A stretch of DNA of 64,000 nucleotides from Thuidium tamariscinum (lineage: Eukaryota > Streptophyta > Bryopsida > Hypnales > Thuidiaceae). The stretch spans positions 22,958,501 to 23,022,500 of the forward strand of contig OX344754.2 of the NCBI GenBank assembly GCA_947034885.2. The letters are read 5' to 3'. A program made the position numbers and the translations under genes. Below the pieces are notes generated by a model, which saw only the letters and a program-made list of their open reading frames with translations, did not search any database and was not told the origin of the DNA. Positions 38,901 to 64,000 of the stretch are shown in pieces (the stretch's first letter is position 1; each line of letters begins with the position of its first letter).

Positions 38901-41900
38901 GCACGTCTCGCATTGGGGGCCTTTCATTGGATGAGGTTCGACTTGAAAACACCACTTCCTTTTCTTAAACATTTCCGCTAATATCGTTTGTAAAAGTACA
39001 AGGGTCTTGATGCTCTTTTTTAATTGCGTTGTCTTATTCGAACAGTTGGCGAGGGAAACGGTGTCATTTTGGACGAAGGGTTTTGCTGCGGAGGCAGCTA
39101 AGAAGCTTGAGAACTTCGGTTTCATCCAACTGCGACCCGGAGGTACATGTTGCAATTGTCACATCTTTTAATCGGGTTATCTATGAATGAAGTTGATTTG
39201 CTTTTCATGTCTATATACCAATCAAAGTTTGTGTGACTGGTTGTAGGTGAGTACCATGGAAACAATCCAGAGATGTCGAAGCTCTTACATAAGGCGGTTC
39301 GTGAGAAGAACCAGAGTGCTTATGCCGTTTATCAGGAGCACCTTTCAAACCGACCGGTCAATGTATGGCACCTCTCTGATACCCTCTTCTCTTTGGTACA
39401 ATTTTTAGTGAACCTATGTGTGCCTGATGAATAGCTGCTTATTATTTAGTGAAAGCGTGACAGTTTTTTAGCAACTGTTGGAAATGGGTTTGTTTGAGCA
39501 TCTCATTGATCTCGACCTTCATCAATCTAGAGATTTTATAGTGTATAACGTAAAAAGGACTTAGAGTAATTCCAAGAATGACTGGCTATTTCGTGCACCC
39601 GTTTGGCCGTTACTCTACTAGTCTTAGTGTTGTACTTTGTGGCAGTACTAGGAATACTAATACTGAACCTTATCAATCTAGATTTAATCTTGGATTCATA
39701 GATACTGGACTAGTGGAGTGCATTACCACCATTTATGAGAAACAGGGATGATTTTATACATCATAGTGAGGGGGGAAGCTAAAAGTTGAAACACAATCTG
39801 GATATTGTTCTCAGCTTTGAGAGTATACAAAAACACCGTTAGCCTTCGCAATGCGTAGAAAAGTTCCCTTTCGTTACAGAGCACAAGTTTAGTACCATAA
39901 TTGAGAGCTAGCTAGAGCCTGCAAGAGTGACTTCTTGTTTGCTATTGTCTGCCCAGGTCTTGCGTGATCTGCTAGAGTTTCAGAGTGAGCGACAGCCTAT
40001 TCCGTTGGAGAACGTGGAACCTGCATCCGGTATCATGGAGCGTTTCGTGACTGGTGGCATGTCACTGGGAGCCATCTCTCGAGAAACTCATGAAGTCATT
40101 GCCATAGCGATGAACAGAATCGGTGGCAAGTCGAACTCTGGAGAAGGTGGGGAGGATCCTATTAGGTGGAAACATCTTTCTGACGTGGAAAACGGTCTCT
40201 CGGGAACCTTACCCCACCTCAAGGGTCTAGAGAATGGGGATATTGCATCTAGTGCTATTAAGCAGGTAGCTTCAGGTCGGTTCGGTGTCACACCATCTTT
40301 TTTGGCGAATTCAGAGCAGCTTGAAATTAAGATTGCACAAGGAGCAAAGCCAGGTGAAGGTGGCCAGCTGCCTGGGAAGAAAGTTAGTCCTTACATTGCT
40401 TCACTGAGGAACTCGAAACCTGGAGTTCCTCTTATCTCTCCTCCTCCCCATCACGACATCTACTCCATTGAAGATTTGGCCCAACTCATCTACGACCTTC
40501 ATCAGGTACACCATTTGTTCTATTTAGTTTATGACACACTATTTCAGTGTTTGGCACTAATTGGAGCATCATGCATTTTTGATCTAGGGATGGATGGGAT
40601 TTGAACATCATTTAGCAAAGGATGTTTATCTTAAGCTCCCGAGCCACCTGTTGATTGACTCACTGTTCACATAAAAGCTTCTTTTTTCTCTCTTTTGATA
40701 GTGGTTCTAAGGTCAAATCAAGTACACTTTCTAAGCAGTTTTCTAAACGTAGTTCATTTACTTCATGGCAGGCTTGTTTGGTGGAAAATAAAATTAAGGA
40801 TTGTACTAAATAGAATGAATGATGTAGTTAGCATAGTGTTGTCTTTTCCTTGGATTGACCGACTTGCGAGTTATATTTTATACTATCCACTTCAAGTTGT
40901 GCTTCGAATTCAATTACCGTTAATTGATTGTCACTGTATTACCTGACAACTTGTTGTTTGATTTTTGATATTAGGTGAATCCAAAGGCAAAGGTTTCGGT
41001 GAAGTTGGTTGCTGAAATTGGAATTGGAACAGTTGCCAGCGGGGTCGCGAAGGCTAATGCGGATGTTATCCAGGTAAGTTACTCTTTCTCTCGAGTTCAT
41101 TTTCAATGGCATTAAGGGTGTTGCTGCCTGAGTAAATCTCCGTTATGTTTGAACTGAGACTGCATTGTTGAATCTCTGACTGCGAATGATACATAGATGA
41201 GTGAAATTGTGGTTCGGCTATCATTTTAATCTCTGTGTTATGCTTTTTGGCAATTGAAAGTGGCCTTCTTATGTTTTAGATCTCCGGGTTTGATGGAGGA
41301 ACGGGAGCTAGCCCAATCAGCTCAATTAAACACGCTGGAGGCCCGTGGGAGATGGGTCTAGCGGAAACCAATCAGGTTGACCTTATTCCTTAGTCACGAC
41401 TCATGAGATGGATAAGGAAAAAAATTCGTATAAAAATTTAAGAAAAAATAAAAATTCTTTATCCTTACACTCTACACTATGTTAGATTCGTGATTGAATC
41501 ATCATAAATGGGCTTGATAACACCTATTCACGGCATTATTCATAAGACTCTCTCCCCTCGTTTCTCCGAAACAAGGTGGGCACCCTTGCATCGAATGGCT
41601 TTGAGGATAACTGTAGTATGAAAATATTTGAGATTGGGATATTAAGGATTTTTGTTGGTAGTTAGCCCATGCTAGGCACACGCTCTCGAAGTTATTTGCT
41701 CTGTTTCCAGGTCCTTTGAATTCTGGGTACATTCACTAATGCATACAAGGATTGATTGACAGACTCTGATCAGCAACTCTCTTCGTGAGAGGGTGGCATT
41801 GAGAGTGGATGGGGGATTCAAGAGTGGAGTGGACGTGGTCATTGCGGCAGCCATGGGTGCCGATGAGTTTGGGTTCGGGTCTCTGGCTATGATAGCCACT

Positions 41901-45135: not shown

Positions 45136-46415
45136 AGACCCATTTCTCTTGGGTACCAATTATCCGGCAACAACACTGTTTGTGCAATTCCATTGCTTCA
45201 ATTACGAGTCCTAAAAGTAGCCTTATTTGTCATCGCCACAACCATCAAAGCGAGTGCTTGCTGTTAATTCTTTGACGTGGCATCGTTTTCATGGGCAACC
45301 CAGTATTTGTAGCGTATGCTAATTACGACCTACTTAGAGTTGCCATAGATCTTCAGGCCAGTTGTGTATTACTGTCAGCCTAGCATTACTGTTGAATTGA
45401 TTGAAAGTTGAATGGAAAGCTTCAATTTTGTTAGATGTACAACAGGGTGCTGATATGCAGCTTAGTAGAAGGTTACTCTCAGGACGCCACCTCCTGGCTT
45501 AAGCGGGTTTCATCTCCATGTATGTGACTAATAGTCTATGATCTAGTAAAGCGTTTTTACTCGTTCATCTTTTGAGGCGTGTTGTGTCGCTTGTTTGGGA
45601 TTGAGTCTGTGACGAATGAAATGGCCCTTGTGCCGAGTTTCTTTACTTATTGATTATGTGACAGGAGGAAGTATGAACCAAAATCCTTTCGACTAGACAA
45701 GTGGGAGTTACGTGTAGCATGCTTCTATTTCCAGTAGGAAGAAACATCTGGCTTCCGATTTTGAGTTTCACACTATGACTGCTGCTTCTGGTCTTGTAAC
45801 TCTAGACCTCACGAGTCCCGGGTGGAGTAGAGGATGTAAATCTAGAGCTGTTAAGGCAGAATAAGCGAGGAATTCAGACATAAAGATTGCAATTTATTTC
45901 TTACTTCCCATCCCCGCATGAAGAGAGTTAGAGCCTCGTGCAAAAGCGCGTGGAGTGACCACCCTAGTCACATTACTAAAAAGTACGGAGTACTTGTTTT
46001 CATTCTCACTGGTGTGCCCTGTGCCGTTGTCACAGTCAAAACTAAAGTTAAAGTAATTTTCTAATTTTTTAATCCATAAATTTTTTGAAATTTAATAACT
46101 TTCTCACTATGAATCTAAATGCCATGAAACCAAGCTTGCACTCCTCCTTGTTGAGAGCTTTTCAACGATACCAAGCATGCAACTTGGGGATGCATAGTTA
46201 GGGAGATCTCAATGTGACAAACAAACAAAACAAAACAAGCAACTTGTCTTAAGGCATAGATCAGACATAGATGTTCTTTATGTGTTTCATATTACACCTA
46301 TGAGAAATTTTATAATTCCTTTAAAATACGCCTGCACAATCAGGGGCTCCAATGGATGATAATTGATGATCCAAACTTCTAGTGACATCTTATTGGTGGT
46401 CTCCCCTCAACACAT
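45136..46415. other. Fd-GOGAT 3' flank and intergenic DNA
   Basis: The first ~450 bases are probably 3'UTR and flank. The remainder has no recognised coding sequence or repeat. Confidence 0.45.
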
Positions 46416-46904
46416 CTACTCTGCACTTTGGATTCCAACTACTGTCTTGTTAGCCTCCTCAGCCCAGGCAACATTTCTCTCCTGAACCTTCCAGCTAATC
46501 TCGTATACAGCACCTGCAAAGAATGAAAGAGAGATGTCATTCTCCCACCAAGTATAATGCCAAGGTTGAAATCAACACCATCTCTAACAAAGGCATGTAA
46601 GCATACACAAATAATAATAAATTTAGGAAAGGGGATGTTTCATTTTACCTACTGCAACAAGGATGATGAGAACGTCTCCGAATCGTTTGATTGCTGTTGC
46701 TGTATCCTTCACTGAGTGGTACTTGTTGAGAGCTGGATCTTTCTAAAGCAACTATAGAGACAGAAAACTAGTCAAATTTCAAACTACTCCGCTGATCACA
46801 AAAACATCAATTTGGAAGGGCATCATGTAATCAAGGACTTCATGTGGGGTTTTCAAAGCATCAGGATTGAAGGAAGAAATGCTGGGTTTCCTCCTCTGGG
46901 TCCT
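46416..46904 (-). CDS. Unrecognised small gene, 3' coding exons (partial)
   Basis: Minus-strand exons that splice in frame: 46806-46904 (tentative, 33 codons with SSFNPDALKTPHEVLDYM), 46649-46742 (acceptor after TTGCTTTAG; KDPALNKYHSVKDTATAIKR then FGDVLIILVAVG) and 46416-46513 (acceptor TTTGCAG; AVYEISWKVQERNVAWAEEA, ending GIQSAE and TAG). The GT and AG signals fit, and phase is kept across the 46649/46513 junction (codon GGT split 1/2). A single hydrophobic stretch (DVLIILVAVGAVYEI) could be a membrane helix near the C-terminus, followed by a charged tail. The 5' end is not found; it must lie between 46,904 and the Sel1-kinase stop at 47,222, or the gene is a relic. I do not recognise the family. 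Confidence 0.4.
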
Positions 46905-47221
46905 CTGTAATACAAACTAGACCATCAAAAGTGACTTTACAAGTGAAAGCTCACTGGCTTTGCTTAAACATTTTAAGATTTTGTACATTGGTGCAATTCT
47001 TACACCGTTGAGCAACTTCAGGTCTTAATAGAAAACGAACATTTCCCGTGAACATTGATACTTGTGGATTGCAGCAGCAATATTCTGACTCAACAAGTTT
47101 CTGCACAGAATAGTACAGGATATTGCAACTTCTCGTTCCATCAGTTGAAGGGTTGGAATTTCAATGCTCCACCAACGGCAGCAGACAGTTGTGCAGCATG
47201 TAATGAAGTGGTCTCCTAAAT

Positions 47222-49993
47222 TCAACTCATCTTCGAAAGCCGTTCCACAAGACCAAAAAGTCCTCTTTGTTCCATAAAGCTTTTCCATTTCTCAACGCCA
47301 TCCACATCTCCCTTTTCCTCGCAGATAACATAACACATGGGGATAGAGTCAATATGACCCAGCTTCTCAGCGGCAGTGGAGAAGTATTTGTAAGCCTCTT
47401 CGGGGTCTTCGTCATCTCCCCCAAAGAGATTTAGCCACAATACCATGCCTTTGTGGAACAATGCTTGGCCCGTCCCCTTCTCTGCAGCTTTGTTGACAAG
47501 CTCGGGTGTGCTAATGTCTTCGAAAGCAATACCTAGCTCAGCAATAACCGCAAAACCCACATTTCTTAAGGCACGATCTATCCAGTACTCAATTTCTGCC
47601 TCCGAGTCTGTTTCACAGTCAAACAACCCCACGAGGCCCCACAATTGGTCGTCGTGTCCCAAGTCGGAGCAGTGCATGTAAAGCTTTTTTGCACGTTCCA
47701 AGTGTTGCAATTTGTCAATCTGTACTAAAAGCTCGGCCAGTGCAGCCATCGCCGGAGGATAGTTTTCTGATACGGCTTGCTCTAGATAAAACAAAGCTCT
47801 GTCGTAGTTCATGGTGTAATTGCGCTCTAAAAATCCAAGGTTAAACTTGGCAGTTACAGAACCCTTTTCAGCGCCTTTTTCAAAGAATTGTCTTGCTTTG
47901 TCGAAGTTTTGTTCTTCGAAGAAAATGGTACCCAACGTGGTTAATGCCTCCGTGCTCACCTCCGTGTGACCTCTCCTGACACATTCCTCCAGCCACTCAA
48001 CCGCTTCATCTCGCAATCCAGACTGCTGGTACATATAGGCGAGGAAGAAAACGACGTCGTCGCTGAGGGAGTCTCTTGCCTCTTTCACCAGAGAGCGAGC
48101 CGATTCAGATTTAAGAGCAAATGTTCTCAGTGACGTGAAATCGTACCAGGTTTTGATGTCCGTAGTAACAGCTGCAATGAGGCTTCGAGCTTCACCCAAA
48201 CCGCCTTCGTTCAGATACTTTTCTGCAAGTCTGAGTTGCCAAGAGGGATTAGGTGACAACTTAATATCTTCTAAATGGTATCGTACTCCTGCAATTGCCA
48301 GACCTTCGCTCAAGTGAATTTCAGAGTACTCTTTGGCCTTGAGAAGCCACAGCAACGCGTCCTCCGAATTTCCTTCATCCTCAAATGTAGCAGCCATAGA
48401 TGCAGCTCCGTCACCTGATGTCGAGGCTTCTGAGAACCATCTTCTCGCTAGTTGAGGCCTTCCCGTCCAATCGTACAGAGATCCCACAAAGATGAAAATT
48501 TCAGGATTCTTCGTCTGCAACAGCTCGTCCTCATCAATAGTATGGTTGATAAAATCTAACAGGAGCCTTCCCAATGCAGACCCACCTTCGACACTTTGCT
48601 TAAGATACTCCATCTCCATGGCAGGGATGGAAGACATTGTGCTGCGGGGGTTATACTGTATATAGAAGAATGTCAAATATGCCTCCGCAGTGGAGTATCC
48701 ACCTTTGACAGCTTTGAACAAATACTTTGCAATTAGGCGATGACGAAAATCTGGGCCAATAGATTGCAAATTTTGGGCGTGCATTCTGGCTAATATAGAT
48801 GAGCCAAACGAGTTACCCTGCTGGTCAAGGCGTTGCAGAAATCCAACCGCTCTCTCATTTATGCGATATGGGTCAATCGACATCAGTACCAGTGCAAGGT
48901 AGTAATAGATTATCGCCTTCACTGACCGTCCATTCTCTTCAAAATCCTCATTTTCACAGGCTCTCTCGAAATGATCACGGGCTGCGGTGAGATCCTCTTT
49001 ACATGGGCCAAGACCGTGGAATTTCATAATGCCAAGAAATACATCCGCCACTGGCAGCTCCTCGCAGTCGACCTTGCGAAAGTAGTCAAATGCTTCATCG
49101 TATAGACCTTCAAAGAAAAATGCCCTTCCTTTAGTTAGTTTAGAATCTTCGCCAGGTTCAAAGTTCGTCCAGGAGTAACTGATGTTGAACTTCTCCGACT
49201 CATCCAGGTGGTTGAGAGTGTGATCCACACTGACGAACCTGGAGTAGGCAACCGGCGCCAAATTTGGCAAAGCTGCCAAAATTTCGTCGCAGGACGGGCG
49301 CTCTCCGGGCTCTTCAGACATACAATTTGAAAGTAGCGCAGAGAACTCTGATCCCAGACCGTGCAAAACTTCCTTCAGCAGCAAACCTAGGCTAAAGATG
49401 TCCGAGCGAAGTCTATCGTAAGGCCCTCCCCTCTCTTTTTCAGGTGCTTTCTTAAATCTTGTTCCAGATACTCTTAGATAATCGTCCTCAGAAACGAACT
49501 TGGCAGCACCGAAATCACACACTTTAGCTCTCAATCCGAAGTTCAACAACACGTTGTCCGTTTTGATATCTTCGTGTGCAATTCCCTTCCTATGCAAGGC
49601 GCGGACACCTAAACAAACTTCTCTGGCTAGCCTTATGCGAAGCTCTCTGGGTAGAACTAGGGTACGTCTTAACAACTCGCCCACTGTGAGGTTGTACGCT
49701 ACTTCCATCACTAAGCACACCTTCTTCTCAGGGTTTACAAATTTGCCAATGTACTGCACGACATAGTACTCCCCTCTCATCGTCTTCATAAATTCAATCT
49801 CTCGTTCTACTTTGCTCTCTAGAGTGTCGGCAGGAAACTCCTTGATAGCAACTTCGTTGCCTCTGTACACGGCTGCGTACACAGATGCTTCAGCCCCCCT
49901 GCCCAAATCTTCTTTGAACTGCCCCTGGTAGCGGTAGCGAATATTGAATGTATCAGAAATGTCGCCATTCCGTGTGCTTGAATGTTCTGACAT
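47222..49993 (-). CDS. Non-RD protein kinase with C-terminal Sel1/TPR-like repeats
   Basis: One long exon, 923 aa from the first ATG (49,993, MSEHSSTRN). Kinase domain about 25-245: glycine loop LGRGAEASVY (30-39), ATP-binding lysine K51 (VAIK), HED at 140-142 with catalytic D142, K144 and N147, DFG at 160-162, APE at 183-185, SDIFSLG near 198. All catalytic residues are present, so it should be active, but Glu replaces the Arg before the catalytic Asp, making it a non-RD kinase. About 290-920 is a run of helical repeats of Sel1/TPR type (for example AEAYLTFFYIQY, GSVTAKFNLGFLERN and TGQALFHKGMVLW), a likely protein-binding scaffold. The frame stays open upstream to 50,050, where TTTGCTTCTTCCTTAG is a strong acceptor; an exon at 50,351-50,428 could splice there in frame. 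Non-RD kinases are common in plant immunity; substrate unknown. Confidence 0.85.
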   Translation of the reverse strand: MSEHSSTRNGDISDTFNIRYRYQGQFKEDLGRGAEASVYAAVYRGNEVAIKEFPADTLESKVEREIEFMKTMRGEYYVVQYIGKFVNPEKKVCLVMEVAYNLTVGELLRRTLVLPRELRIRLAREVCLGVRALHRKGIAHEDIKTDNVLLNFGLRAKVCDFGAAKFVSEDDYLRVSGTRFKKAPEKERGGPYDRLRSDIFSLGLLLKEVLHGLGSEFSALLSNCMSEEPGERPSCDEILAALPNLAPVAYSRFVSVDHTLNHLDESEKFNISYSWTNFEPGEDSKLTKGRAFFFEGLYDEAFDYFRKVDCEELPVADVFLGIMKFHGLGPCKEDLTAARDHFERACENEDFEENGRSVKAIIYYYLALVLMSIDPYRINERAVGFLQRLDQQGNSFGSSILARMHAQNLQSIGPDFRHRLIAKYLFKAVKGGYSTAEAYLTFFYIQYNPRSTMSSIPAMEMEYLKQSVEGGSALGRLLLDFINHTIDEDELLQTKNPEIFIFVGSLYDWTGRPQLARRWFSEASTSGDGAASMAATFEDEGNSEDALLWLLKAKEYSEIHLSEGLAIAGVRYHLEDIKLSPNPSWQLRLAEKYLNEGGLGEARSLIAAVTTDIKTWYDFTSLRTFALKSESARSLVKEARDSLSDDVVFFLAYMYQQSGLRDEAVEWLEECVRRGHTEVSTEALTTLGTIFFEEQNFDKARQFFEKGAEKGSVTAKFNLGFLERNYTMNYDRALFYLEQAVSENYPPAMAALAELLVQIDKLQHLERAKKLYMHCSDLGHDDQLWGLVGLFDCETDSEAEIEYWIDRALRNVGFAVIAELGIAFEDISTPELVNKAAEKGTGQALFHKGMVLWLNLFGGDDEDPEEAYKYFSTAAEKLGHIDSIPMCYVICEEKGDVDGVEKWKSFMEQRGLFGLVERLSKMS

Positions 49994-50050
49994 CTCCGAT
50001 CTCAAATGGCGAGCGAAGAAATCACACACGTACGTCGAATCCGGTAAGGA

Positions 50051-50350
50051 CTAAGGAAGAAGCAAACGAACTCAATCACAGAAGAAGGGAGATGAGTGCG
50101 AACAATTAGCACGAGTGGGTGGGGTGCTAGCAACTATCCGACATTATTGATCACCGAGTAAACCAAACACAAAAAGCCTGGCTGTTTCGGAAGAATTAGT
50201 ATACTCTCTCCATGTTCAACCTCGGCATGTTCGATATTAGCGAACGAACTAACGAACCAATCCGAGGTTGGGTCTGAGGCTCTACTGTAGTTTGTACAGT
50301 ACAGACTGCTTCTAGCTAGCTAGCTGGGAAGCATAGTACGACGTAACCAC
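50051..50350 (-). other. Putative intron 1 / 5' region of the Sel1 kinase
   Basis: Read on the minus strand it starts AAG|GTGGTTACG at 50,350 and ends in a pyrimidine-rich tract plus TTAG at 50,051. The first ~215 bases are homologous to intron 1 of the HeLo-pseudokinase gene; the last ~85 bases next to the acceptor are not, so the junction of the two histories is near 50,135. Confidence 0.5.
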
Positions 50351-50428
50351 CTTCTCCCAAAGACCGATGACACCATCGATTGACGCCGCAAAGCCGACCA
50401 CACCAACTGCGACCAGAAAAGTTTCCAA
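50351..50428 (-). pseudogene. Duplicated HeLo first exon, start codon ATG changed to TTG
   Basis: Same 78-nt length and phase as exon 1 of the gene at 53,599. It translates as LETFLVAVGVVGFAASIDGV followed by IGLWEK, against METFLVAAGVVGFVASIDGV and IGLCEK in the other copy. The frame is open and the GT donor survives (AAG|GTGG), but the initiator is TTG and I see no in-frame ATG upstream. It may now act as a 5'UTR exon of the Sel1 kinase, use a non-AUG start, or be a relic. Splicing to 50,050 would keep the kinase frame. Confidence 0.75.
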
Positions 50429-50606
50429 GGCGACGAGTTCGATCCAGCCCTTTGCCGTCAAATATAAGTGGCAAGCAAATCCAGCAGGTGAGTGAAAATT
50501 AGCTACAGCGAATGTTGGCAGTTTGAAATTTTATTTACCGACAGCTGATCGACTCAAGTGTCAACAAGACCGAAACCCTAGAAGAGAATGGGTACTACTG
50601 AAGTGC

Positions 50607-50803
50607 AAGGCTTCTCATTTCGCAATTTCAGAGTCAGCGATGGCGAGGAGATTGGAGAAGGAGAGCCTCGCCAATTCGTGGCCTCGAGTTGGTTCACCCT
50701 GGTCCACGGGCATGGCCACTCGCGGCCGTCTGATCACCAGATGGGCTTAGGATGCTTCGGTTGCTATACCAGTTGAGCCCGCTTAAGCTTAATTGCCTGT
50801 CGA
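50607..50803 (-). mobile_element. ~197-bp GC-richer insertion in the left arm, possible SINE remnant
   Basis: Interrupts the homology between the arms and is clearly richer in GC than its flanks. On the minus strand GGGCTCAACTGGTATAGC resembles a tRNA A-box/D-arm. No proper B-box (GGTTCRANNCC) is seen at the expected distance, so a tRNA-derived SINE is only a suggestion; it may instead be ancestral sequence lost from the right arm. Confidence 0.3.
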
Positions 50804-51119
50804 GCAGGTTCAAGTTCTAACTCGTTTTTTTCATGACCCTACCCATTAGTTTGCGAGCAACTGAATTTATTTTTTAACCCATAAACATCGCAGCGGACGT
50901 TTTTCGGCCGATGAATGGCAAAGGATCTCTCCGTGTAGGACAGAAATGCAACTATTTCATCCTCCAAAATTTGTGTAGAAAGAGAAGATCTATAGTAGTT
51001 TGTCTTCCAATGAGTACTTTTTCATTTTTTTAAGCCAACAATTTATACGGTGACAAAAGAGATGATTTCCACAGTGACTGATCCGGCGTTCAAGGATTAA
51101 TGTTGACTCATAACTAGGC

Positions 51120-51300
51120 CTTTTTTTTCATTTTTGAAGAAGTGCCATAATGGCGATATAAAATGTTCTAGTGGTGCTCCAAATTGCAATATTCATCCAC
51201 TTATTGGATGTATAATATGGTATTCATCCACAATTAGGCAATTTCATCTAATATTCTTTTAAATATAAAAGTTTTTTGGCGATTTCATCCAATTTTTTTG
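51120..51300 (+). repeat. Dispersed repeat family R5, copy 2
   Basis: See 22,108-22,280. Confidence 0.5.
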
Positions 51301-51599
51301 GCATTTTTTATAACCTTTTTTAGCTAGATATTTTTTTCTAGTGCAATCTGGCACCAGAAAGCCAAAAAAAAGCCTTGTTCATAACTTACCACCAAAAACA
51401 ATTTTGTCTTCCTTCAATGAAAACTCAAAAGGCTCAAGAGGTTAGGACTTAGGAATGCATTCTCCTATAATTCTTAAATGATTTCTTCATAAAAAAAAAT
51501 TTATCCACTTTTTAATTTGTTCTTTAAGTACCAATGCAACTATCATTTTGGTTTAGGGTGAAATTTTGAAACGAAATTTTGACATGTTGAAAAAATTAT

Positions 51600-51810
51600 T
51601 TATTAAGCACTCCGCTGTCCATATTTTGGACAATGAACAAAGGGCTTTGAGGCGCTATTTTGTTCACCAAACTTTTCATTCATCCAGTGTAACACTTGAA
51701 TTTTGAAAAGACAACCTTCTTTAATGATTAATTTCATGAAATTGCAGTAGAAAGATATAAGCAAAAATGTACCAAAATTAGAAAAAAGATTGAGGCATTA
51801 AGGGCTTAAT
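51600..51810 (+). repeat. Dispersed repeat family R6, copy 2
   Basis: See 26,385-26,610. Confidence 0.7.
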
Positions 51811-52494
51811 CACTCAAGAAAATTAAAGAGTATGGTAGGCAAAAGGTCACCAATTCTTTTATGAATTTTGATTTTCCACTTTCATTAAATGTACTATAAA
51901 TTAGGGGAAATTTTAACTCTTTGCAATTGTCATCCAAAACAAAAATTTAGTTTTTAAGTTCTAGATTACATTCATGTTGTTGAATTCATGAGCACTCCCA
52001 ACATGCCCGTGCTAGCCACCGTCAACACTTCCAACATGCCCTCGGTGGTCACCATGATGACTCCCAACATGTTTTGGGTGGTAACCGTGACCACTCCTTA
52101 TATTAAAAGTGTGAAAGCAAAATTGTTGTTTCATACAAGAGTTTGGTTTTGTTATTTAATATTTGTATTACTTATATATATATAAGTTTTATGTAATGAT
52201 AGTTTATCTACCACAATATTACTGTGATTATATTTGCATTAATTATATGTTGTATATGTAACATGTTTTAATGTATTGTTGGTTGCACTTCATCTTCTAG
52301 ATAGATATATTTGTTGACTGCAAATACAATAGATATGCATTCACTACATCTTTTGAGCTCATTGTCATTGTCATTGTCACAATGAGCTCAAAAAAATTAA
52401 TTAATTAATTTTTTTTAACTACCTCCCTGATCCCCGGGTTTAAAAAAATATATTAATTGAAATTAATTTCTTAATTCTTTGTCCCCCCCTCCCT

Positions 52495-52850
52495 TTATTT
52501 GTAATTTTTTGAACAAGTATACAATGACAAACAATATGGGACAATGAAAATTGTATCCCGTATCAGTATATTGTATCCATACCTATACACGTATTTGTAT
52601 TTGTACACGTACTATATTCAAAATATCAAGCATTGTATCCATACAATATTCATAAATGTACTTTGATTCATATTCGTATATCGTATCTGGATTTGGATTT
52701 GGATGGATGGCTTAGATTAAATCTCAAAGATCAATTGCTTAAATTTTTTTGAGAAATTGACAACAATTTTGAAGGTAAGCATTTAAAAAAAAAAATCAAT
52801 GGCTTTAAAAAATTTTGAGAGAGGAGGGGGCAACTAATACCCTTGGCTTA
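52495..52850 (-). repeat. Dispersed repeat family R4, copy 2
   Basis: Reverse-complement relative of 21,385-21,720, with a C-rich left end (GTCCCCCCCTCCC) and a G-rich right end (GAGAGGAGGGGG). Confidence 0.65.
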
Positions 52851-53326
52851 CTCTTTTGGATACATTATTGGTTGTTAGCTAAATAATGCAAATTACAAAG
52901 CAGTCTTATTATTTGTAGATTTCCTCATGTACGAGTAGTAGTTTTATAGCACTATGAAACACTTCCTATACAAGCATTCTAATAAATGGTTTAAATAAAT
53001 AAAAAATATGTAAGAAGATCAAAATTTTGGAAAATAATTTAAAAATGATAAAAATAATTTAAAAATGAAGGGGAAATTAGAAAAATTAGCTACAAAGAAA
53101 TTGTAAAGGATTATCTTGATATTGTGACATTCAAAATGTATTGAAAACAAATCTAAAATAAATAAAAAACTAACTCACTGAAGATAAATTCAAAACAAAT
53201 TGTGGTTAAATACTTACATTTCCATAATCAAAATTGAGGTAGACCTCCAAAATGGAAATAGAAAAAGAAGTGAAATAAAAATTGAAAATGGGAATTTTTG
53301 ATGGTAAATTATGAGCCAATAACAAA

Positions 53327-53904
53327 AATAAATAAAAATTCAGTTGCCCTCGAACTGATGGGTAGGGTCATGAAAAAAATGAGTTAGAACTTGAGTTGCA
53401 AGCTTTGCTCCCCATGTCTGTGTCTGTACTTCAGTAGTCCCCATTCTCTTCTAGGGTTTCGGTCTTGTGGACACTTGGGTCGATCAGTTGTCGGTAATTT
53501 TGAAACTGGCAACATTCGATGTTGCTAATTTTCACTCACTGGATGGATTTGCTTGCCACTTACACTTGACGGCAAAGGGCTCGATCGAACTCGTCGCCAT
53601 GGAAACCTTTCTGGTTGCAGCTGGTGTGGTCGGCTTCGTGGCGTCAATCGATGGTGTCATCGGTCTTTGTGAGAAGGTGGGTACGTCTTACTATGCTTCC
53701 CAGCTAGCTAGAAGCAGTCTGTACTGTACAAACTACAGTAGAGCCTCAGACCCAATCGGATTGGTTCGTTGGTTCGTTGGTTCGTTGTTCGCTAATATTG
53801 AACATGCCGAGGTTGAACATGGACAGTGTACTAATTTTTCCGAAACAGCCAGGTACGTACTTCCTTGTATTTGGTTTACTCGGTGATCAATAATGTCGGA
53901 TTAC
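53327..53904 (+). repeat. Right arm of inverted duplication: promoter, first exon, intron 1
   Basis: Counterpart of 50,135-50,878. It includes TAGGGTTT at 53,452-53,459, an upstream ORF, exon 1 and about 225 bases of intron 1. An 8-base GGTTCGTT string is repeated three to four times at about 53,760-53,790 and fewer times in the left arm. Homology stops at about 53,904. Confidence 0.9.
53519..53569 (+). promoter_or_regulatory. Upstream ORF of 16 codons before the HeLo-pseudokinase ATG
   Basis: ATG at 53,519 to TGA at 53,569, out of the main frame, 29 bases before the main start. In the left arm the equivalent ATG reads CTG. If the leader starts upstream of 53,519 this could lower translation of the main frame. 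Confidence 0.4.
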
Positions 53905-56537
53905 AATTGGTTCCAAGAATTGTACTCTATGTGTGTGTTTGTGCGACAGGTGAAATGGTTGCTCGACCATTTACGTCACACCAAGGAATTGGGAGTCGAG
54001 CGGGCGCGGGTCGGGAATATATGCAGAGTATACCTAAAGTTGAAGGAGAAGCTGGAGCTGGAAAAGGACGCTATGGAAGAAATGGGCTTGGAATTACTGA
54101 GGATATCCACTCTGGTAGTTCACGAAAAATTGACAGAAATAGTACCGAAACTGCAGCCTTCCGTTGTGATTTCGCAGAAAAAGAGGATCAATAAGAAGCT
54201 GGACGAAATTGATCGCGTACTGCACTCCTACATGTGGCTTTTCCATCTCGAAGCGCGGCCAGGTAAAAGATTTTATATCATTATGCCAAAATTTGTCGTT
54301 TCAACAATGAAGACCTTTTCAGTGGTACGATTGTGATGTCAAGGTTCTGATTCGGAGTGACGAATTGTTTAAACAGACACCAACCAATCTAATGTAGCAC
54401 CGAGCAATCAGACAGCCACCGAGTACTCCGTTGTGGCAAATCTCCTGGAGGACAATAAGCTGCTGCAACGTCTCATGAATCCTAGTAACAGCACAGTCAT
54501 CTCCAAATCCACTCTTCGACAGCAGGATTGGTACACCGAAACCCTTGAAGTAAAACCAGACAACGCCAGATGCGTTGTGGTGGAAGGCAAGACGTACATG
54601 GTAGAAAGGATTGCTCTCGGAAAGACTTCAAAGGAGACAGAGCGGAGATTGAGCCGCTTGGGGAAACTTCTCATGATAATGCGTGAAAGTGAGGATGCAG
54701 GAATCTGCAATCTTCTCCGCATGTCTAAAATTGTGAGGGAGCCCGAGAATTTCTGCATTTTAAGCGAGGTTCGTCCCACGAGTCAAATGCTTGTTTCAAT
54801 TGCCGTGCTCTAGTTTCTTTTAAAATTGTTGGATACCGGTACATTCTAAGCTTTTTACATTGCTCTGTACACAAAAAATTCAAAATATTTGGACTAGACT
54901 CTATTTTGAAGAAATTTGGATTTAACGAATCGGCCTGCAGGCAGCTCATTTCGACAACTTAAGTTTGCTCAACGGCCACGAAATATAACTTTTCTCAATC
55001 TCTCAGTTTTTGTTTGCAGTTGGAGGATGCTCGTTACACAGTGCTGGAAGGAATGCTTGCCGATTTGAAAGACAATCAAGGTTGGAAGGTTTTGTTGCTG
55101 ATAGCGGAGGCAGTGCAGAGCCTTCACAAGATATCCTTGGTACACGAAGGTCTCAATAGCCAGAATATTCTCGTGCATATCAACTCAATGGAGATCAAGC
55201 TCACGGGCTTTGCCTCCTCTCGAGAGATCCTGGTTAATAGCTTCTAACCTATCACTGAATCGATTCAAAACAACATCTTCTATCTTCTGTTTGCAGATAA
55301 TTAATGAGATTTTTGTGGGGTTTTCCCGCATGGATTATATATTCTTCAATTAATAATTATTACATTCCTGATCACAATGTCAAATTAGTTACGTCCATCA
55401 CACTTTGACGTGGTTGTGGGGAGTTGTGGAGTAGGATCTGAGCGACTGTCTGACTCCAGAGGACCCAGACTTGCAAAAGAGAAATCAAATATTCCAGGCG
55501 CCGGAGCGACTCGCAGGCTCCAGGTATCTCACATTTTTCCCGTTCATAATTGTTAATATGTTTTACGGGGAAGTTTGTTAACTTCCACACTCCATGTGGG
55601 CATGGCCTGATTCTCTCATTTTAAGCCTAGTTTTGACCAATGATCTTAGTAAAGCTATTGAACTCTGAGCAGCTCCTCGATTGCTTTAATATTAGATATA
55701 TCCACGATTGCCATAGCCCTATTTGGATTTCATCAATAAGGATCCAGATGGCTAGTGTGTTGTCAACCAGGATTCGCTGATGACTGAAAACTTGCATTAA
55801 AACATAGTGAATGATAGGAATTATGTCATGTTTGCAGCTCTAGTGAGACTGCAGAGACCCAACAGTCGGTCAGGATTGTTCCAGTACTAGTCAGGATTGT
55901 TCCAGTGCTAGCTGGGACTAAAGTCCCCCACTTTAGCCCGACCAAGGTGTGCAATTTTGGGGTCTAAAGTGACGTCAACAAAGAAAACTTGAGATTTTCC
56001 AAGTGCCTTGTAAAAAGGGCCTAAAATGGGGGTTATTGGGTGAAAGATTAGCCCCTGCTAATGCCTTGAAATCTTCCTGTGAGTAACGTTTTCCAGTTCC
56101 AACCAATGTCGTCAACGTCTAGGAGCATACCAGGCATGGCTAAACCCTAATAAAACCTTGAATTAATGTTGAGGGTTCCATTAAAGTTGCAACAGTGCAC
56201 AATCATGACTTGTATCTATATCTGAAACTAATCAGCTGCCTGTGTTACTACTGATGCTAGGTATTCCTTTGAATGTGACGTCTACTCCTTGGGAATGGTG
56301 ATGGCGGAGGTGTGCCTTGGACAGCCTCTAGTGCAGGTACCCAAGACAGACAGGGATGACATCATGAGCTTGCTGGAGCAACCCTCTCGAATGTTTGGGG
56401 CGGAGACGCAGGCTCAAGTCGTAGCACTGATTCGAGAGATTGTACTGGCACCGACGGCTTCCAAGAGGCCTTTGGCTCTGGAGATTACTGAGAGACTATC
56501 AAGAATGGGGCACAGTCGGAATGGAATCCTGCCCTAG
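53599..56537 (+). CDS. HeLo-like domain pseudokinase, MLKL-type architecture
   Basis: Six exons (53599-53676, 53950-54262, 54377-54768, 55020-55232, 55435-55523, 56261-56537) join in one open frame, 453 aa, about the size of animal MLKL. Residues 1-130 are predicted helical and start METFLVAAGVVGFVASIDGV, like HeLo/HET-s N-termini (G/A-rich first helix), followed by charged helices (VYLKLKEKLELEKDAMEEMG). A linker (131-175) leads to a kinase fold with no glycine loop, MVER where VAIK should be (205-208), HEG (303-305) for HRD, Asn for the loop Lys (307), N310 kept, and GFA (324-326) for DFG. APE (354-356) and the ECDVYSLG helix are kept, as in pseudokinases. In fungi, animals and plants HeLo domains act as membrane-attacking or oligomerising cell-death modules. 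Family assignment rests on motifs and architecture only; the 55,435 exon has the weakest signals (acceptor GAGTAG). Confidence 0.7.
55855..55975 (+). repeat. Short tandem repeat and hairpin in intron 5
   Basis: GTCAGGATTGTTCCAGT(A/G)CTAG occurs twice in a row, then GGGACTAAAGTCCCCC is followed by ACTTTAGCCCGACC, forming a small stem of the kind seen at MITE or CACTA ends. TGACGTCA is also present at 55,970-55,977. Intronic. Confidence 0.5.
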
Positions 56538-57544
56538 GGCTGCATTCTTCTTAAATCACTTAATATAGCACATGGCTGCATTCATAATTAGGGTAATTAA
56601 AAATAAACCCTGTGTGTACATGAAGTATTACATACATTTTTAACTTTTGAAAAAATGGTCATTTGTAAATATAATACTTTTGATCATCAAAATGTATTAA
56701 ATATCTCTCTCTCTTTATATACATATATATTATTATGTTTATAATGAATTCAATTTTTTCAATACTCCCTCCCTCCCAAGTTTGGTAGTGGATTTTAAAA
56801 GGCAGTGTTTACTCTAATCCTAATTTGAAAGCATAGTTTCCAGTTATAGAAACTTTCCAAATTGAAGTCGATTGGTAATAAACTCAATTCTGAAGCATGT
56901 CTACGTTGCCTATAAACATTGTAGTCTTGAGGGTAGCGTTTATTGAAAACCAGTTTTGTTGAAATTCTATAGATTTTAGACTGCATGGTTTGAATTGTGA
57001 AAATAATCATAGAAGGGTCCAAAAATTTGTAAATGAATTGTACCCATTGTACAAACTTGGACATACTATACTAATCTTACTATTGACTATGGGCAGATTT
57101 ACCATACTTTCTCCACCTCATGCTTGTTACAAGTAGATGATTTTGAATGAATGTGCAATGAGAGCTCTCAAGTGCAAAAGAAGTGAACATGGCTATTAAT
57201 TGCAATCAAAGGAAGATCACAAATTAGAGGTAACAATAGAGACAAAGTGCCATCAACATACAAATAAGAATAGGCTTTATTGAGAAGGAAACTTTGCCCT
57301 CTCTTTGTGTTTAGATTTGTTCAAGAACGGCTTGGAATTCAATACGGTGGAAGCACCCAAAATTGTCAAAATAAGCAATTCAATATACTTCGAGGTACTT
57401 CCTAAAAATAATATTTTCGTAGTATTCGCAATTGAAAATCATGAATTTAAAAAAAGAAAGATTTTTCAGATAATTATGGCATGTATTTTTTTATAAATTT
57501 TCAAAGTAGAGACTCCCTAGAGTCCTAGACCATTGAAATCAAGA
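56538..57544. other. 3' flank of the HeLo-pseudokinase and intergenic DNA
   Basis: AT-rich, with CT and TA dinucleotide runs near 56,705-56,730. No gene recognised. Confidence 0.5.
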
Positions 57545-57752
57545 TTTTTGAAATCTATATCTATTATAGATGTCACTTATATAAGATTTAAAAAATCTAT
57601 ACCTATCAAAAAACTGAGACTGGTGTAGATTTCAAACATCTAGGAATGATATAGATTTAAGAAATCTAGAACAATTGTACATTTCAAACCATCCAGTTAG
57701 AATTGTAAAAATTGCCAAAATTGCATAATTTTGCCATTTTAATAAAATTTAA
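57545..57752 (-). mobile_element. MITE family M1, truncated inverted copy
   Basis: Its reverse complement matches the first two thirds of the M1 copies below: TIR-like AAAATGGC, then the AATTTTTA...TTTGAAATGTACAATTGT core and repeated (A/T)GATTTC(T/A)AAATCTA strings. The far TIR is missing. Confidence 0.6.
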
Positions 57753-57839
57753 TGACGCTTTTCAAGGATACTTTAATGCAAGTTTAGGGATGATTTAATG
57801 GAAATCTAGGATACAAGAGGGTTGTTGCAAGTCAAAAAC

Positions 57840-58320
57840 ACCCCCTTGTTTTTGTAGCATTTACACAATATTCATGATCTTTTCTTGGAGTACTTTAAAA
57901 TTTTAAAAATAATTTTAAAAAAACATGAAAAATATGTCCAATGTATACACCTTTACAAAAAAATTACCCAAGGAAGGAAAAGCATAGAAAAATTCTCTAA
58001 GTAGGAGAACTAGAAAAGTGCAAAATCTCATGAAAATAGGACCTTTGACATTTTGATTTGTAAAAAATATGAAAAGATTTTTTTTTAAAACTAAAATTTG
58101 GCCATTTGGGAAAAGTTAATGGTGATGAGATTTCACCAAAAGAATGATCTTAGAAACATCTTCAATGTCCAAAAATTGCATGCAATGGGAGTGTTTTTTA
58201 CACTAAAATAATATATTTTCATATTTCCTTCGGCAAATACACGCTTTCCTACTATGCAAATCAACCATGAAAATTTCAGTTCTAAATCATTAAATACGGA
58301 GACTCCTAATGTTCTAAAAA
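57840..58320 (+). repeat. Dispersed repeat family R7, copy 2
   Basis: See 30,430-30,960. Directly followed by an R1 copy (58,400-58,580). Confidence 0.75.
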
Positions 58321-58399
58321 ATCATTAGATGAAATTCAGTCCTTCAAGAGGGTCGTTTCAAGGTGGTTCCCACCATTGTTGGAAATCAGCCACTATTGT

Positions 58400-58580
58400 T
58401 TGAAAAAAAATCATTTAGAAAATATTAAAATATCAAAATAAAAAATAAAAAATATTTAAAAAATATTTAATTATTATTTACTGACATGGTAGTCTCTAGG
58501 CTACGTCAACAGGCTACGTGGTTGTATTCTCGCAGTTTGGGAACTACAGAGAATCCGTAGCCCTACAATGAAGCACAATC
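58400..58580 (+). repeat. Dispersed repeat family R1, copy 3
   Basis: See 28,770-28,985; GTAGTCTCTAGGCTACGTCA and CAGTTTGGGAAC are the landmarks. Confidence 0.55.
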
Positions 58581-59366
58581 TCATCTAATGCCCTAATCTC
58601 AAAGTGTGACAAATTAACAAAAATAATTTTTAAATATAATTTTTTTTTTAATTTCTAAAAAATAAGGGATCTGATTACCATCAAGTTAGACATGTTCAAA
58701 ACAAATTTCATGTTCATTGGACTTGTGCTTCAAAAGTTATAGCAGATGATAACAACATCACTCCAATTGTGATAGAGAATAAGACTGGTGTTTTTTGCAA
58801 TGTCTTAAGAATGGATATAAGAATGGGTGTTTTCACCTTAGATTCTATGAAAAGTTCAATGTCATTTGGTCTTTAACCTAGTCAACTTTCAATTGCTATA
58901 AAAAAACTCAATTTTAAGAATATTTTTTTATCTATAAAGTGGATAATAAACTGAGTAATAAACTAAACTTCTTGTACTTCACTTCATTAGTTAATGTCAA
59001 AAATAAAAAAATTATCTGCAATCTTAAAATCAAGTTTGAAGTACATTGCTAAATGAGACAAGTAATTCAAGACAAATGAAAGAACAAAAGGGATTAATAT
59101 TATAGGATGGAAGGAATCTTTAGGAATGAATGTTTTTTTCAGAGGATAGGAGGGCCTAACTTCCCAGCTAATACAAAATAAAGATAATTCTTTGTTTGAA
59201 GTCTAATATATTTTTGGATTTTCAACATTGTTGTGGTCTTTGTGGACTTATATGGACCTATGTAAGCTAGTGTATAATGATATAGGTGCATCACACACTT
59301 CATCAACACCTCCATTCGCTACTTCCAAATGCAAAAAACACTATAAGTTTTTTGATCAACCCATAT

Positions 59367-59661
59367 GGGCAATTTCATTAAAATGGCGACATTCTACTAA
59401 TTTGGCAATTTTTGCATTTCAAATTGGGCGGTCTAAAATGTACAAACATATTGAATGTTTGAAATTTATACCTTTCTTAGATGTCTTAAATCTACATCTG
59501 TCCTAAATGTCATTTTTTAGAATTCAATCCGCTTGGTCTGAAATCTATACACTAGTCCTAGATTTCTAAAATCTATACCTATCCTAGATGTCACTTTTAT
59601 AGTTTAGATTGGGTGGTCTGAAAATGGCACATGGAATACCACCATTTTAATGAAATTGCCC
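59367..59661 (+). mobile_element. MITE family M1, complete copy, 295 bp
   Basis: Perfect 20-base TIRs: GGGCAATTTCATTAAAATGG and its complement. The interior is built of degenerate repeats of the kind CCTAGAT(G/T)T and AAATCTA(C/T)A. No coding capacity. An open frame of 92 codons runs into the element from upstream and is not considered real. Confidence 0.85.
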
Positions 59662-59729
59662 ATCCATGTAGTGATGCAAAATTGTAGATTAGATGTCTTG
59701 GTATATTACATAGTTGTATTAGACAACAT

Positions 59730-60021
59730 GGGCAATTTTGTTAAAATGGTGAAATTCTTCAACTTTCACAGTTTTTATAGTTCAAACCATACAATTTGAA
59801 ATGTACAATTGTCCTAGATTTCTTAAATCTATATCATTCCTAAATGTTTGAAATCTACATGAGTCATAGATGGCACTTTTAGATTTCAGACCGCTTAGTT
59901 TAAAATCAATGTAAGTTCTAGATTTCTAAAATCTACACCTATCCTAGATGTCATTTTTACGGTTCAAACCGAGCAGTTTGAAAATGGCACACAGAATACC
60001 ACCATTTTAACAAAATTTCCA
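59730..60021 (+). mobile_element. MITE family M1, complete copy, 292 bp
   Basis: Starts GGGCAATTTTGTTAAAATGG, ends CCATTTTAACAAAATTTCC, with the same interior repeat order as the copy 70 bases upstream and in the same orientation. Confidence 0.8.
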
Positions 60022-61169
60022 ATTAATGCTTTGTCCTACCTCAAAGTGGTAAGTACACTCAACCTCATGATCGAGTGCATCAGGAAATTAGGATACCCTT
60101 TGTAATAATTGCATCTTAAATCTACATTGTCCTAACATTTTACTACTCAAATCCTTGACACATGCATAGAAGAGATGCAATGCTATCCTCTATCCTATAT
60201 AGTAAATACAAAGAGGTCACAATATCATCCATCACATTTTCATGTAGATGGATATATGGTCATGTTTTCATCGTTACAAATTTTCATTTAAATTTTGAAA
60301 GAATTATCAAATTTTAATGAGTTCTAGCAAAACTTAGGAAAAATACTAATTTTTTCTAATGTAGTCATGGGTAGTTTTCGCAAATGGTGCAATAGTTGTA
60401 CTACTAGTTGAGTAATTAATTTTAAAAGGTAAAACAAGCACACTATGTGTCAAACTATGTTTAAAACTATGTGTATTTATTTATGTGCCAAATTACAAGG
60501 AGATTCGTGAGAACAACACTTAGGACTAAAACTATCAATGAACATGAGTAAGTTTGTTGATAGAGATTCAATGTGAGGTTGAGGCAATCTCTGATGGTTA
60601 CTTGTTGGGGACCTTATGTTATGAAGGTCTCCAATTTGAACCTATAATGTGGTAATTTTGTTAAAGTTTCCAAACATATCTAAAATACAATAAATCAAAT
60701 TCAATGTTGCCAAATTTTATTTTTTCACTTTAAATAAATATTTGGCATATGAGTGCCAAATCTACTATGAATGAATAGTAATACATAAGTATGTATATAC
60801 CCTTTGCATTGATGGACATCTATGCTCCTTTCGACCTTTCATATAAAGACTTGTGCTACAATTTGTCTAACCATGATATTAGCTTTTTATATTCCTCTTC
60901 ATTTGTTTGTTGATTTTTATTTTTTTTGAACAAATGGAGTGTTTGTTAAAATTTGATATCCAATAACTTTTGAATATTTCATCTCACCTATTTATTAAAA
61001 ATAATCTTTTGCCTTTTGCTTTTTGCCTTCAGTTGGTGAATATGAGACAACGCAATAAATTAAAGTGTCCACAAAATGTTCATCTATATGATTTTGGACA
61101 AAATCTTTGAGTGTCACCTTAGTTATGAGGTCAGTATTTTGCGATATTTCACCAAAACCCACATACAAT
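60022..61169. other. AT-rich intergenic DNA
   Basis: No gene or terminal repeat recognised. Confidence 0.5.
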
Positions 61170-61316
61170 AGAACCTCTCTACGGTAGTATCAATTGCCCA
61201 GTCTCGGCCTAGGTTGCATACAAATGTCATTATTGCAATGACCTTCCTTAATATAATAACCTCTCTAATGTAATATAGTCAACCCAATCCTAGCCTTATT
61301 ACTTTAGAAAGGTTCT
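61170..61316. mobile_element. Small MITE-like element, about 147 bp
   Basis: Imperfect TIRs AGAACCTCTCTACGGTAGT and (complement of) AGAACCTTTCTAAAGTAA, with further imperfect inverted pairing inside (AACCTCTCTAATGTAATA). AGAACCTCT-type ends are common in plant MITEs. Confidence 0.5.
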
Positions 61317-62515
61317 CCTCTAGTACAAATATTGGTGCAAACAACATTTTTTACATTAGGACTAGGTTTTTCCATTTGGACCCATGTCCCCCCTGTTGGC
61401 TTCACTATAAAGACCAATTTTGGAAGGAACAAAGCCAAAGAGGTTAGATTTTTGAAAGTCTAGCAAAATTTGCCAAAAAAAATGCCATGATTAGAACAAA
61501 GCAAGGAAGCAAGCTGGGAAGGGAATTTACAGATTTTATTCTAAGTTCTACTCCAAGTGGTTCTAGACACATCATTCTACCATTCTCAAACTAATTATTC
61601 CAAATCAAAAAAGGTGTTGCTACATCAAGCATTTTCTAAAATAAGTATTTTTTTGAGCAAAACTCTTATTATTGTAAACTAGGAATGTGAACAAAAAAGT
61701 CCATTTCTCACTTGGACCTTTTCCATAGAGTCAATTCTCTATTGAATTTAAAACTGACTACATATTCTAAAAGCTGTGAAAAGAGGAAGAATTGTATTAA
61801 AATTTGATATGTAAGTAATTGTCCTACCATCCTTTTACCCTACCAAGTACAAATTTGCACCTATAATTTCCAAAGAATGTGCCATGCTCATCAATATCCA
61901 ACTACATTGTTTTGGCTCTAAATTGCTCTTTGGAATTTGAGAGTGCCTCAAATCAAGCAAGTGCTTTGTAGATTGAAAATGAATTAGTATTAAATTGGTA
62001 GTTCACTTGATTGGTGGTGGTTTAAAACAACTTCCGTAGTTTGCTAATCATGGTTCTAGATTGAAGAGTATTAGTGAGTGTTGGGAAGCTTTCAGTTTTT
62101 AATCACATAAAAGGAAAATTGAAATTAAAGCTAGATGAAATTCAAGAACAATATTTGATAATTATATGCAAAAAAATTTAAGAGTCAAAGTTGAATTGGT
62201 AGATTTTCCAAAACTGTGCCCTATTTTCACACCTTGAAGAGAATGCAACAAGCATTTATTTTTTTCCATTTTTTAGGGCTTGCTTTTAGAAACATACTTA
62301 AATTTTGGTGACTTTTAGTTTATTTAGCAATAAATGTTCTTTTCTAGGATGGTTTCAGGATCCTAATTATGATTAAATATATTTTTTTTAATATTATTTT
62401 GGATTTTGCAATAGAAATGACAATTTTGATTGTTTTTTTTAATTCAAAATGACTTTGGGATTTTAGAGTCTAAGAACTTAGAAAAATCCCATTAAATGAG
62501 TGCTTTGTCATGTAA

Positions 62516-62841
62516 AGGCAATTTTGTTAAAATGGCACCATTCCACTACTTTGGCAGTTTTGACAATTCAGACCGAGTGGTATGAAATGTACAAATGCCT
62601 TAGATGTTTCAAAATCTATACCTTTCCTAGATGTCTGAAATCTACACTAGTCCTAGATGTCACTTTTACAGTTTAGACTTTAGACCACATGGTCTGAAAT
62701 CTATACCAATCCTAAATTTATGAAATCTATAAAAATTGAAGATTTCTAAAATCTATACATGTCCTAGATGACAATTATACAATTCAGACCAGACAATCTC
62801 AAAATGGCACATAGAATATCACCATTTTAACGAAATTGCCC
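62516..62841 (+). mobile_element. MITE family M1, complete copy, 326 bp
   Basis: Starts AGGCAATTTTGTTAAAATGG and ends CCATTTTAACGAAATTGCCC. The interior has one more repeat step than the two copies near 59.5 kb. Confidence 0.8.
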
Positions 62842-63032
62842 ATTGGTGCATTGAATACATTTAAATTAGAAATCTCATCAATAAAAAAATTAATATTTAT
62901 TTGATATTTCTAATACAAATAGTGACAATCACAAAGATTATTCTTTATGTTCATATTATTTTAGGATTTTTGTATTTTTATGATGACATTTGATGCTCAA
63001 AATCATTTGATTTTAAAGATTTTAAACTATAT

Positions 63033-63052
63033 ATATATATATATATATTGAA
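63033..63052. repeat. AT dinucleotide microsatellite
   Basis: About ten TA/AT units in a row. Confidence 0.85.
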
Positions 63053-63286
63053 TGAGTATTTGATGAAAATTATGGGGTGAAAATTTTCTTGAAATTTTTT
63101 ATGAAGGTCATAAATTAGCTATGGCAAAATGGAGTAGATTTTCTAGTGCAAATTTTGATGTAGTAATGTGTATTTTGGGGTAAAACTAGTATAAATTGAG
63201 CACTTCATGAAAGTGATGGTGCATGTCACGAATTGGTGTACCATAGTGTGCAATTCTCCTAAACAAAATCTTTAATAAACAAAATC

Positions 63287-63472
63287 CACTACAAGAAAAA
63301 GGAGTGTTTTAAGTATAGCTCCAGGAGTATGTCCTAATAGTAATGACCTTTTTAGGAGTTTAAAAGAAAATTTTATTAGAAATACATGTGCCTTTAGTAA
63401 AATTTTACTAAAAATCTTTTAAAAAGGTCATTATTGTTAGGACTATACTAAAAATGCCCCTTTCTCTTGTAG
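63287..63472. mobile_element. CACTA-like MITE, about 186 bp
   Basis: Left end CACTACAAGAAAAAGGAG, the plant CACTA-type terminus; the right arm AAAAAGGTCATTATTGTTAG...CCCCTTTCTCTTGTAG is its imperfect complement. The last bases of the right end (GTAGATA instead of GTAGTG) have decayed. Confidence 0.7.
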
Positions 63473-64000
63473 ATATCTCAAACAACCTAAACCCTTAAAC
63501 AACTTGAAAGGTTGGGAATTGGAGCCACAATTTTGGATATAACATTGTGGATTTGGATATTTGATATAGAATGTACGTGAATTCGAAAGTATACAATAGT
63601 GAATTTTATCTTATTCTTGCTTAGTTGGATCGATTATAATTGCATCTCCTATATAGTTCAAAAACAACAAAATATTCACATATTCAACAAGTTCATTCTA
63701 TATTTGAGTGGGATAAGGAATAGATGCTAATCCCAAAAGAACTAAACTAAGGCTCATGACTATGTTTCACCAAAAAATACCTTAGAATTGTCATTCCTAG
63801 TACAAAGAGCTATGATGGTAAAAAACTATTTTTTGAGTATTCAACCATAATAAATTGCCAAAAATTGGATGAAAATGTGTCAACAGAAAATATTTTAGAA
63901 TCTTTAACTTAATAAATTAGATTACAAATTTGCAAGATATATTAAGTGTTCAATTAATCCTAATGGTTTTATGAGACCGTGATTCCTTTGGGTTTCAAAC
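63473..64000. other. AT-rich intergenic DNA
   Basis: Nothing recognised to the end of the window. Confidence 0.5.

Follow-up and report, generated by a model that had tools for sequence, protein, structure and literature searches.

A decayed, inverted copy of a pseudokinase gene's 5′ end stands upstream of a kinase-Sel1 gene in a moss genome: a possible two-gene unit

What becomes of two neighbouring genes when the front end of one has been copied, in inverted orientation, to the front of the other? The question is raised by a locus of the moss Thuidium tamariscinum, within a stretch of 64,000 nucleotides (nt) of contig OX344754.2 (assembly GCA_947034885.2, positions 22,958,501 to 23,022,500 of the forward strand). 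We call this whole stretch the window, and positions are those of the window unless the contig label C6 is given (the window is C6:22958501-23022500). In it a kinase gene with Sel1 and TPR repeats and a pseudokinase gene read away from each other, with two inverted arms between them. The original prediction held that the arms gave both genes the same start. We favour another reading, which we hold tentatively and at slightly less than even confidence: an inverted copy of the 5′ end of the pseudokinase gene, since decayed, lies upstream of the kinase-Sel1/TPR gene, and the two genes form one functional unit. The parts of this reading differ in standing. The arms, the decay of the left one and the order of events (the arms being older, the pair duplicated later) can be read from sequence comparison, and the joint function is the tentative part.

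The core of the arms (50136-50607 against 53425-53901, inverted) aligns with 427 of 459 columns identical, a core identity of 93%, and its BLAST match scores 597 bits, against at most 24.7 bits among 20 pairs shuffled in two-base blocks. A second, outer piece of 65 nt, in which 50810-50874 pairs with 53330-53394, brings the outer edge to 50874/53330. Inverted copies had been predicted near 50,135-50,878 and 53,327-53,904; alignment and BLAST find them at 50136-50874 and 53330-53901. The right arm, on the plus strand, belongs to the pseudokinase gene and takes in its 5′ flank, its exon 1 and the greater part of its intron 1; the left arm, on the minus strand, is an inverted copy of the same parts. 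The gene bodies do differ beyond exon 1, as had been claimed; all that they have in common is a kinase-fold match of a generic kind (27% over 93 aa). Inverted duplications occur at rearrangement breakpoints, and there too a segment is copied inverted between genes; here, the copied segment is the 5′ end of a gene with a dead start codon.

The spacer between the arms (50875-53329) is 2455 bp long with 29.7% G+C. It had been described as about 2.4 kb of repeats; the length was right, but the spacer shows short tandem repeats only. The arms were also considered as the terminal repeats of a transposon and rejected as such. Right-arm DNA has six matches in the genome searched (363 Mb in 19 contigs, best candidates scored), all at the window locus or at C6:21.681-21.685 Mb, within two duplicate blocks described below, and no outer direct repeat was seen by eye.

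Do the arms provide a common protein start? The right exon 1 begins with ATG at 53599. Its left counterpart (50351-50428, minus strand) has TTG at 50428-50426, and it has TTG in both genomic copies of the locus. The left open frame (50530-50312) likewise lacks an ATG in the two copies, and hence a methionine. The splice donor is weaker as well, again in both: in a simple hand-made weight matrix the left AAG|GTGGTT scores 5.9 and the right AAG|GTGGGT 9.2. A shared coding start is rejected on these grounds, and this part of the original prediction fails. As the right gene is intact, we infer that ATG is the older state and TTG the derived one. Divergence between the arms, measured for the window's left arm against the duplicate's right arm, is 7/78 sites in exon 1 and 11/207 in intron 1. 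Since the exon has diverged no less than the intron, coding constraint on the left exon is not seen, and conservation of the flank is not special either. The left arm thus has the look of 5′ DNA copied from the right gene and since decayed; its role could be that of a promoter or leader, and no more.

It could still be argued that the left exon 1 is translated from its TTG and spliced in frame to the kinase, adding a hydrophobic helix. The context of the TTG is the same as that of the right ATG, and splicing of AAG to AG|TCC at 50050 would, by eye, join the frames without a stop. But TTG is a weak start codon, the donor is weakened, and four of the seven exon changes alter the protein, in an exon that diverges as freely as its intron. 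We consider such a chimeric start very unlikely. The kinase gene does not need the left exon, because in the frame that begins at 49993 the match to the kinase domain already starts at residue 27.

The arm could otherwise contribute a leader. Between it and the kinase ATG lie 142 nt (49994-50135, minus strand) with pyrimidine-rich runs, which may be a leader and have an AG immediately before 50050 as a candidate acceptor; this stretch shows no change between the duplicates (0/142). Five ATGs with short frames, inside or downstream of the left exon (50376, 50334, 50228, 50213 and 50144), precede the kinase ATG, so that an unspliced arm-derived leader would burden translation. A folding test of the leader gave z -1.35. 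A promoter scan with a bacterial-type model found 15 promoters against 12.2 expected, an uninformative result.

How old is the arrangement? The chromosome carries the pair a second time, 1.33 Mb off, with both arms present and in the same layout. The duplicated segment covers window positions 46393-64000, starting 3′ of the kinase gene, and its other copy lies at C6:21677673-21696118 and beyond. Identity by piece is 96.8-99.3% (window against 100 kb around the other locus), and the block, traced as far as C6:23026736 beyond the window and C6:21699999 at the other locus, is at least 21.8 kb long. In a four-way alignment, the window's left and right arms differ at 34/459 sites, the two left arms at 3/472 and the two right arms at 0/477. 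As the arms have diverged from each other far more than the duplicates have, the inverted duplication is the older event and the duplication of the block the younger; and the TTG, which both copies have, was in place before the block was duplicated. The origin by segmental inversion and duplication that had been proposed is therefore supported in the form of an inverted duplication of a gene's 5′ end, with the pair later duplicated as a unit.

The arms are uneven. A stretch of 268 bp present in the duplicate's right arm is missing from the window's right arm (at about 53413). Roughly its first half matches 50666-50809 of the left arm, within a BLAST match of 228 columns (77%), and the remaining half has no BLAST alignment to the left arm. 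Because about half of the stretch matches the left arm, a loss from the window's right arm appears likelier than a gain in the duplicate.

Two near-identical blocks on one chromosome might also suggest an assembly artefact, by fold-back or haplotig duplication, which had been named as a possible refutation. A fold-back is thought unlikely, as the arms differ at 32/459 sites and by insertions and deletions (indels), and the second copy, 1.33 Mb off, has substitutions and indels of its own. Between the blocks there are point changes as well as indels of 29, 268 and about 560 bp. We give an artefact of either kind hardly any chance.

The same comparison bears on whether the arms could act through RNA. 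Read-through of the inverted repeat could yield double-stranded RNA that represses the pseudokinase gene, and the repeat is long and its core well matched. However, the loop would be 2.46 kb, both genes read away from the spacer, and the left arm with the leader shows few changes between the duplicates and no richness in transitions (3 transitions and 2 transversions, against 42 and 8 in the spacer). A silencing hairpin is accordingly a most improbable explanation, and the literature matches listed included no paper on a hairpin locus. The spacer is itself peculiar in this respect, its 42 to 8 comparing with 17 transitions to 13 transversions in the kinase gene; such transition-rich changes might be expected of methylated DNA.

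What, then, do the two genes encode? The kinase gene (47225-49993, minus strand) is a single exon of 923 aa with its ATG at 49993. Pfam finds Pkinase (2.4e-33, residues 27-212), Sel1 (3e-11) and TPR in its product, and by eye the catalytic residues appear retained (Lys51 of VAIK, Asp142 of HED, Asp160 of DFG). It had been called an active kinase with Sel1 repeats: the Sel1/TPR repeats and the catalytic residues are indeed seen, and activity is predicted from them. The frame is open in the duplicate too, as 919 aa. The best 49 of 495 candidates in the genome search all gave matches, of which two lie in the blocks and the other 47 stand at 24-37%, so that among these candidates there is no close kinase-Sel1 relative outside the two blocks.

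The pseudokinase gene (53599-56537, plus strand) is a prediction of six exons and 453 aa, open throughout and with GT-AG at all five introns. Exon 1 (53599-53676, 78 nt) encodes the first 26 aa, which are strongly hydrophobic; exon 2 (53950-54262) encodes a predicted helical region, possibly a HeLo-like bundle; the predicted exons 3-6 lie at 54377-54768, 55020-55232, 55435-55523 and 56261-56537. Pkinase matches at 3.2e-18 (profile positions 43-257 of 263), and by eye HEG at residues 303-305 and TGF at 323-325 replace HRD and DFG. The N-terminus is very hydrophobic, with a mean Eisenberg value of 0.59-0.77 in 18-residue windows starting at residues 1-8; it is not amphipathic, since the helical moment is low there. 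A single-sequence AlphaFold2 model of exon 2 without exon 1 (104 aa) is nearly all helix, with a predicted local distance difference score (pLDDT) of 76 and a weak predicted template modelling score (pTM) of 0.39. Of 14 genome matches to this protein, 12 fall in the blocks and two are weak kinases at 31 and 35%; no close relative appears outside the two blocks among the best candidates.

These parts invite comparison with two known arrangements. Head-to-head pairs of nucleotide-binding leucine-rich-repeat (NLR) immune genes, such as RPS4/RRS1, resemble the locus in being divergent, and the window pair has been copied as a unit with one partner perhaps changing fast. It differs in its domains: no NB-ARC or LRR is seen among the Pfam matches of both proteins at E<=1 (E<=0.1 for the 453-aa pseudokinase). 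The likeness to paired NLR genes that had been drawn thus holds for the layout and stops at the missing NB-ARC. The other comparison is with RIPK3 and MLKL. In the excerpts consulted, the literature describes that RIPK3 phosphorylates MLKL, that an MLKL family exists in seed plants and is conserved across them (PMC9950082), and that HeLo is kin to four-helix bundles (PMC9950082; PMC10079105; PMC12881547). As in the animal RIPK3-MLKL pair, there is a kinase with catalytic residues and a pseudokinase whose N-terminus is hydrophobic and predicted to be helical; the window pair differs by the Sel1/TPR solenoid of the kinase protein and by the adjacency of the genes. By its parts, the window pair is closer to a kinase with an MLKL-like pseudokinase than to a paired NLR.

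Plant MLKL proteins share with the window's pseudokinase a predicted helical N-terminus and a kinase fold, the pseudokinase being C-terminal. DUF1221 is the N-terminus of the plant MLKL family, and the window's protein differs in having no DUF1221 match. The one DUF1221 match of the genome (C7:6755468-6755656) shares a 514-aa frame with a kinase in which HRD and DFG are intact.

The nearest working model is one in which a kinase with catalytic residues would switch a pseudokinase with a putative membrane-active front end. Under the favoured reading, an inverted duplication has set a second copy of the pseudokinase gene's flank, exon 1 and the greater part of intron 1 upstream of the kinase-Sel1/TPR gene. 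This left copy has lost its start codon, its donor is weakened, and it would serve the kinase gene at most as promoter or leader DNA; the kinase gene starts from its own ATG at 49993. The kinase-Sel1 protein may sense a changing target through its solenoid and may then act on the pseudokinase, as RIPK3 does on MLKL; the hydrophobic, helical N-terminus of the latter may act on membranes.

Is there any sign that the genes are used in this way? The evidence lies in how they have changed, part by part, between the window block and its duplicate. The kinase-Sel1 gene differs at 30/2757 sites, with 28 nonsynonymous and two synonymous changes (S 603.3, N 2153.7). In simulations of 30 random changes, two or fewer synonymous ones arise with P 0.004-0.006 when transitions are set at 0.57, and with P 0.001 at 0.75. 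Nonsynonymous changes (28/2154) also exceed those of pooled neutral genic sites (kinase synonymous sites plus pseudokinase introns, 6/2180), with P 1e-4, or 5e-4 when double-hit codons are counted once. The changes are unevenly placed: 21 of the 25 substituted residues fall within 231-692 (P 8e-4 for a region picked after the data were seen), which also holds a 4-aa indel, and none of the 25 falls within 693-923. The coding part of the pseudokinase gene differs at 3/1362 sites, three nonsynonymous and none synonymous. The kinase-Sel1 gene thus shows a suggestive excess of amino-acid changes, with P from 0.001 to 0.08 by method, and may be changing unusually fast. Immune genes often do. The unequal change of the two genes is compatible with a division into sensor and executor, and is no proof of it; we read it as a sensor kinase in the course of change, next to an MLKL-like partner that is more stable.

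A good deal weighs against this reading. A single pair of sequences underlies all the tests, and the excess shrinks with the method: a binomial on site counts with all 30 changes gives P 0.026; three codons carry two changes each, and counting these once (25 and 2) gives 0.010 / 0.005 by simulation and 0.046 by binomial, while dropping them (22 and 2) gives 0.022 / 0.011 and 0.078. As a whole, the kinase gene changes no faster than downstream DNA (76/7461 sites). The introns of the pseudokinase gene are as slow as its exons (4/1577), for which reason purifying selection on the gene is not claimed; its stability may stem from a regional rate or from gene conversion, either of which would weaken the pooled test too. 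At a divergence of about 1%, little can be concluded from the frames being open in both copies. The Pfam match of the left kinase ends at profile position 193 of 263, having begun at 4. A shared promoter would need the flank, and the flank differs between the arms at 24/184 sites next to the start, at 56/178 in the stretch that the window's right arm has lost and at 12/75 in the outer part, figures that are inflated by gapped, poorly aligned edges. Finally, the prediction of a HeLo pseudokinase holds for the pseudokinase and finds no match for the HeLo part: Pfam gives nothing for the first 130 aa at E<=10, DUF1221 and HeLo included, and the exon 2 model has no PDB fold match at E<=10. Against PDB sequences, the first 130 aa give chance-level matches only (best E 0.28), and against 26 open frames from kinase loci of the same genome the best phmmer E is 0.3.

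The strongest alternative is that the locus is neutral debris, the left arm being an inert 5′ fragment of an inverted duplication and the genes accidental neighbours without joint function. We regard this as a real possibility, clearly short of even. The decayed left exon agrees with it, as does the flank, the most diverged part of the arms; the left arm has changed at 5/710 sites between the duplicates, much like the DNA 3′ of the kinase gene (5/832); and, among the best candidates, the genome holds no other close copy of either gene, so that no recurring pair was seen. On the other side, the left arm has changed more slowly than the spacer (50/2446, P 0.014), although the spacer is transition-rich; the pair has stayed together and open in both duplicates; and there is the suggestive amino-acid excess in the kinase gene. 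The pairing of the two genes survives as a hypothesis, with that excess as its one suggestive line of evidence.

If the favoured reading is taken to its full extent, the locus would be a linked necroptosis-like module in a plant, in which a fast-evolving kinase-Sel1 sensor switches on an adjacent MLKL-like executor, with a copied promoter beside it and the pair duplicated. This fuller version we think unlikely. Were it true, the kinase would be an activator of the RIPK3 type for an MLKL-like protein in a plant, and we know of none so far; a pair that works as proposed would make the two genes a candidate for MLKL-like death of plant cells set off by a kinase. Whatever its function, the locus offers, in two genomic copies, an example of an inverted gene front end set before a second gene, with the start codon lost and the pair persisting. 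The parts are of known kinds and the arrangement is new; the literature matches listed held no paper on such a gene pair.

A few other features were seen. Two of the 26 kinase loci (L038 and L054, C3:28414580-28416367) are one 652-aa frame with two kinase-like stretches, and several kinase matches lie on C3 at 28.41-28.50 Mb. Elsewhere in the window, a 288-nt unit stands in two tandem copies, 98% alike, at 1493-2068; it has no BLAST match to an inverted repeat at 19150-19904, also of 288 nt, 99% complementary with 179 nt between, which resembles a foldback element or a miniature inverted-repeat transposable element (MITE). Glutamate synthase exons and a TspO/MBR gene lie at 34342-35118, 39912-40604 and 11929-12771.

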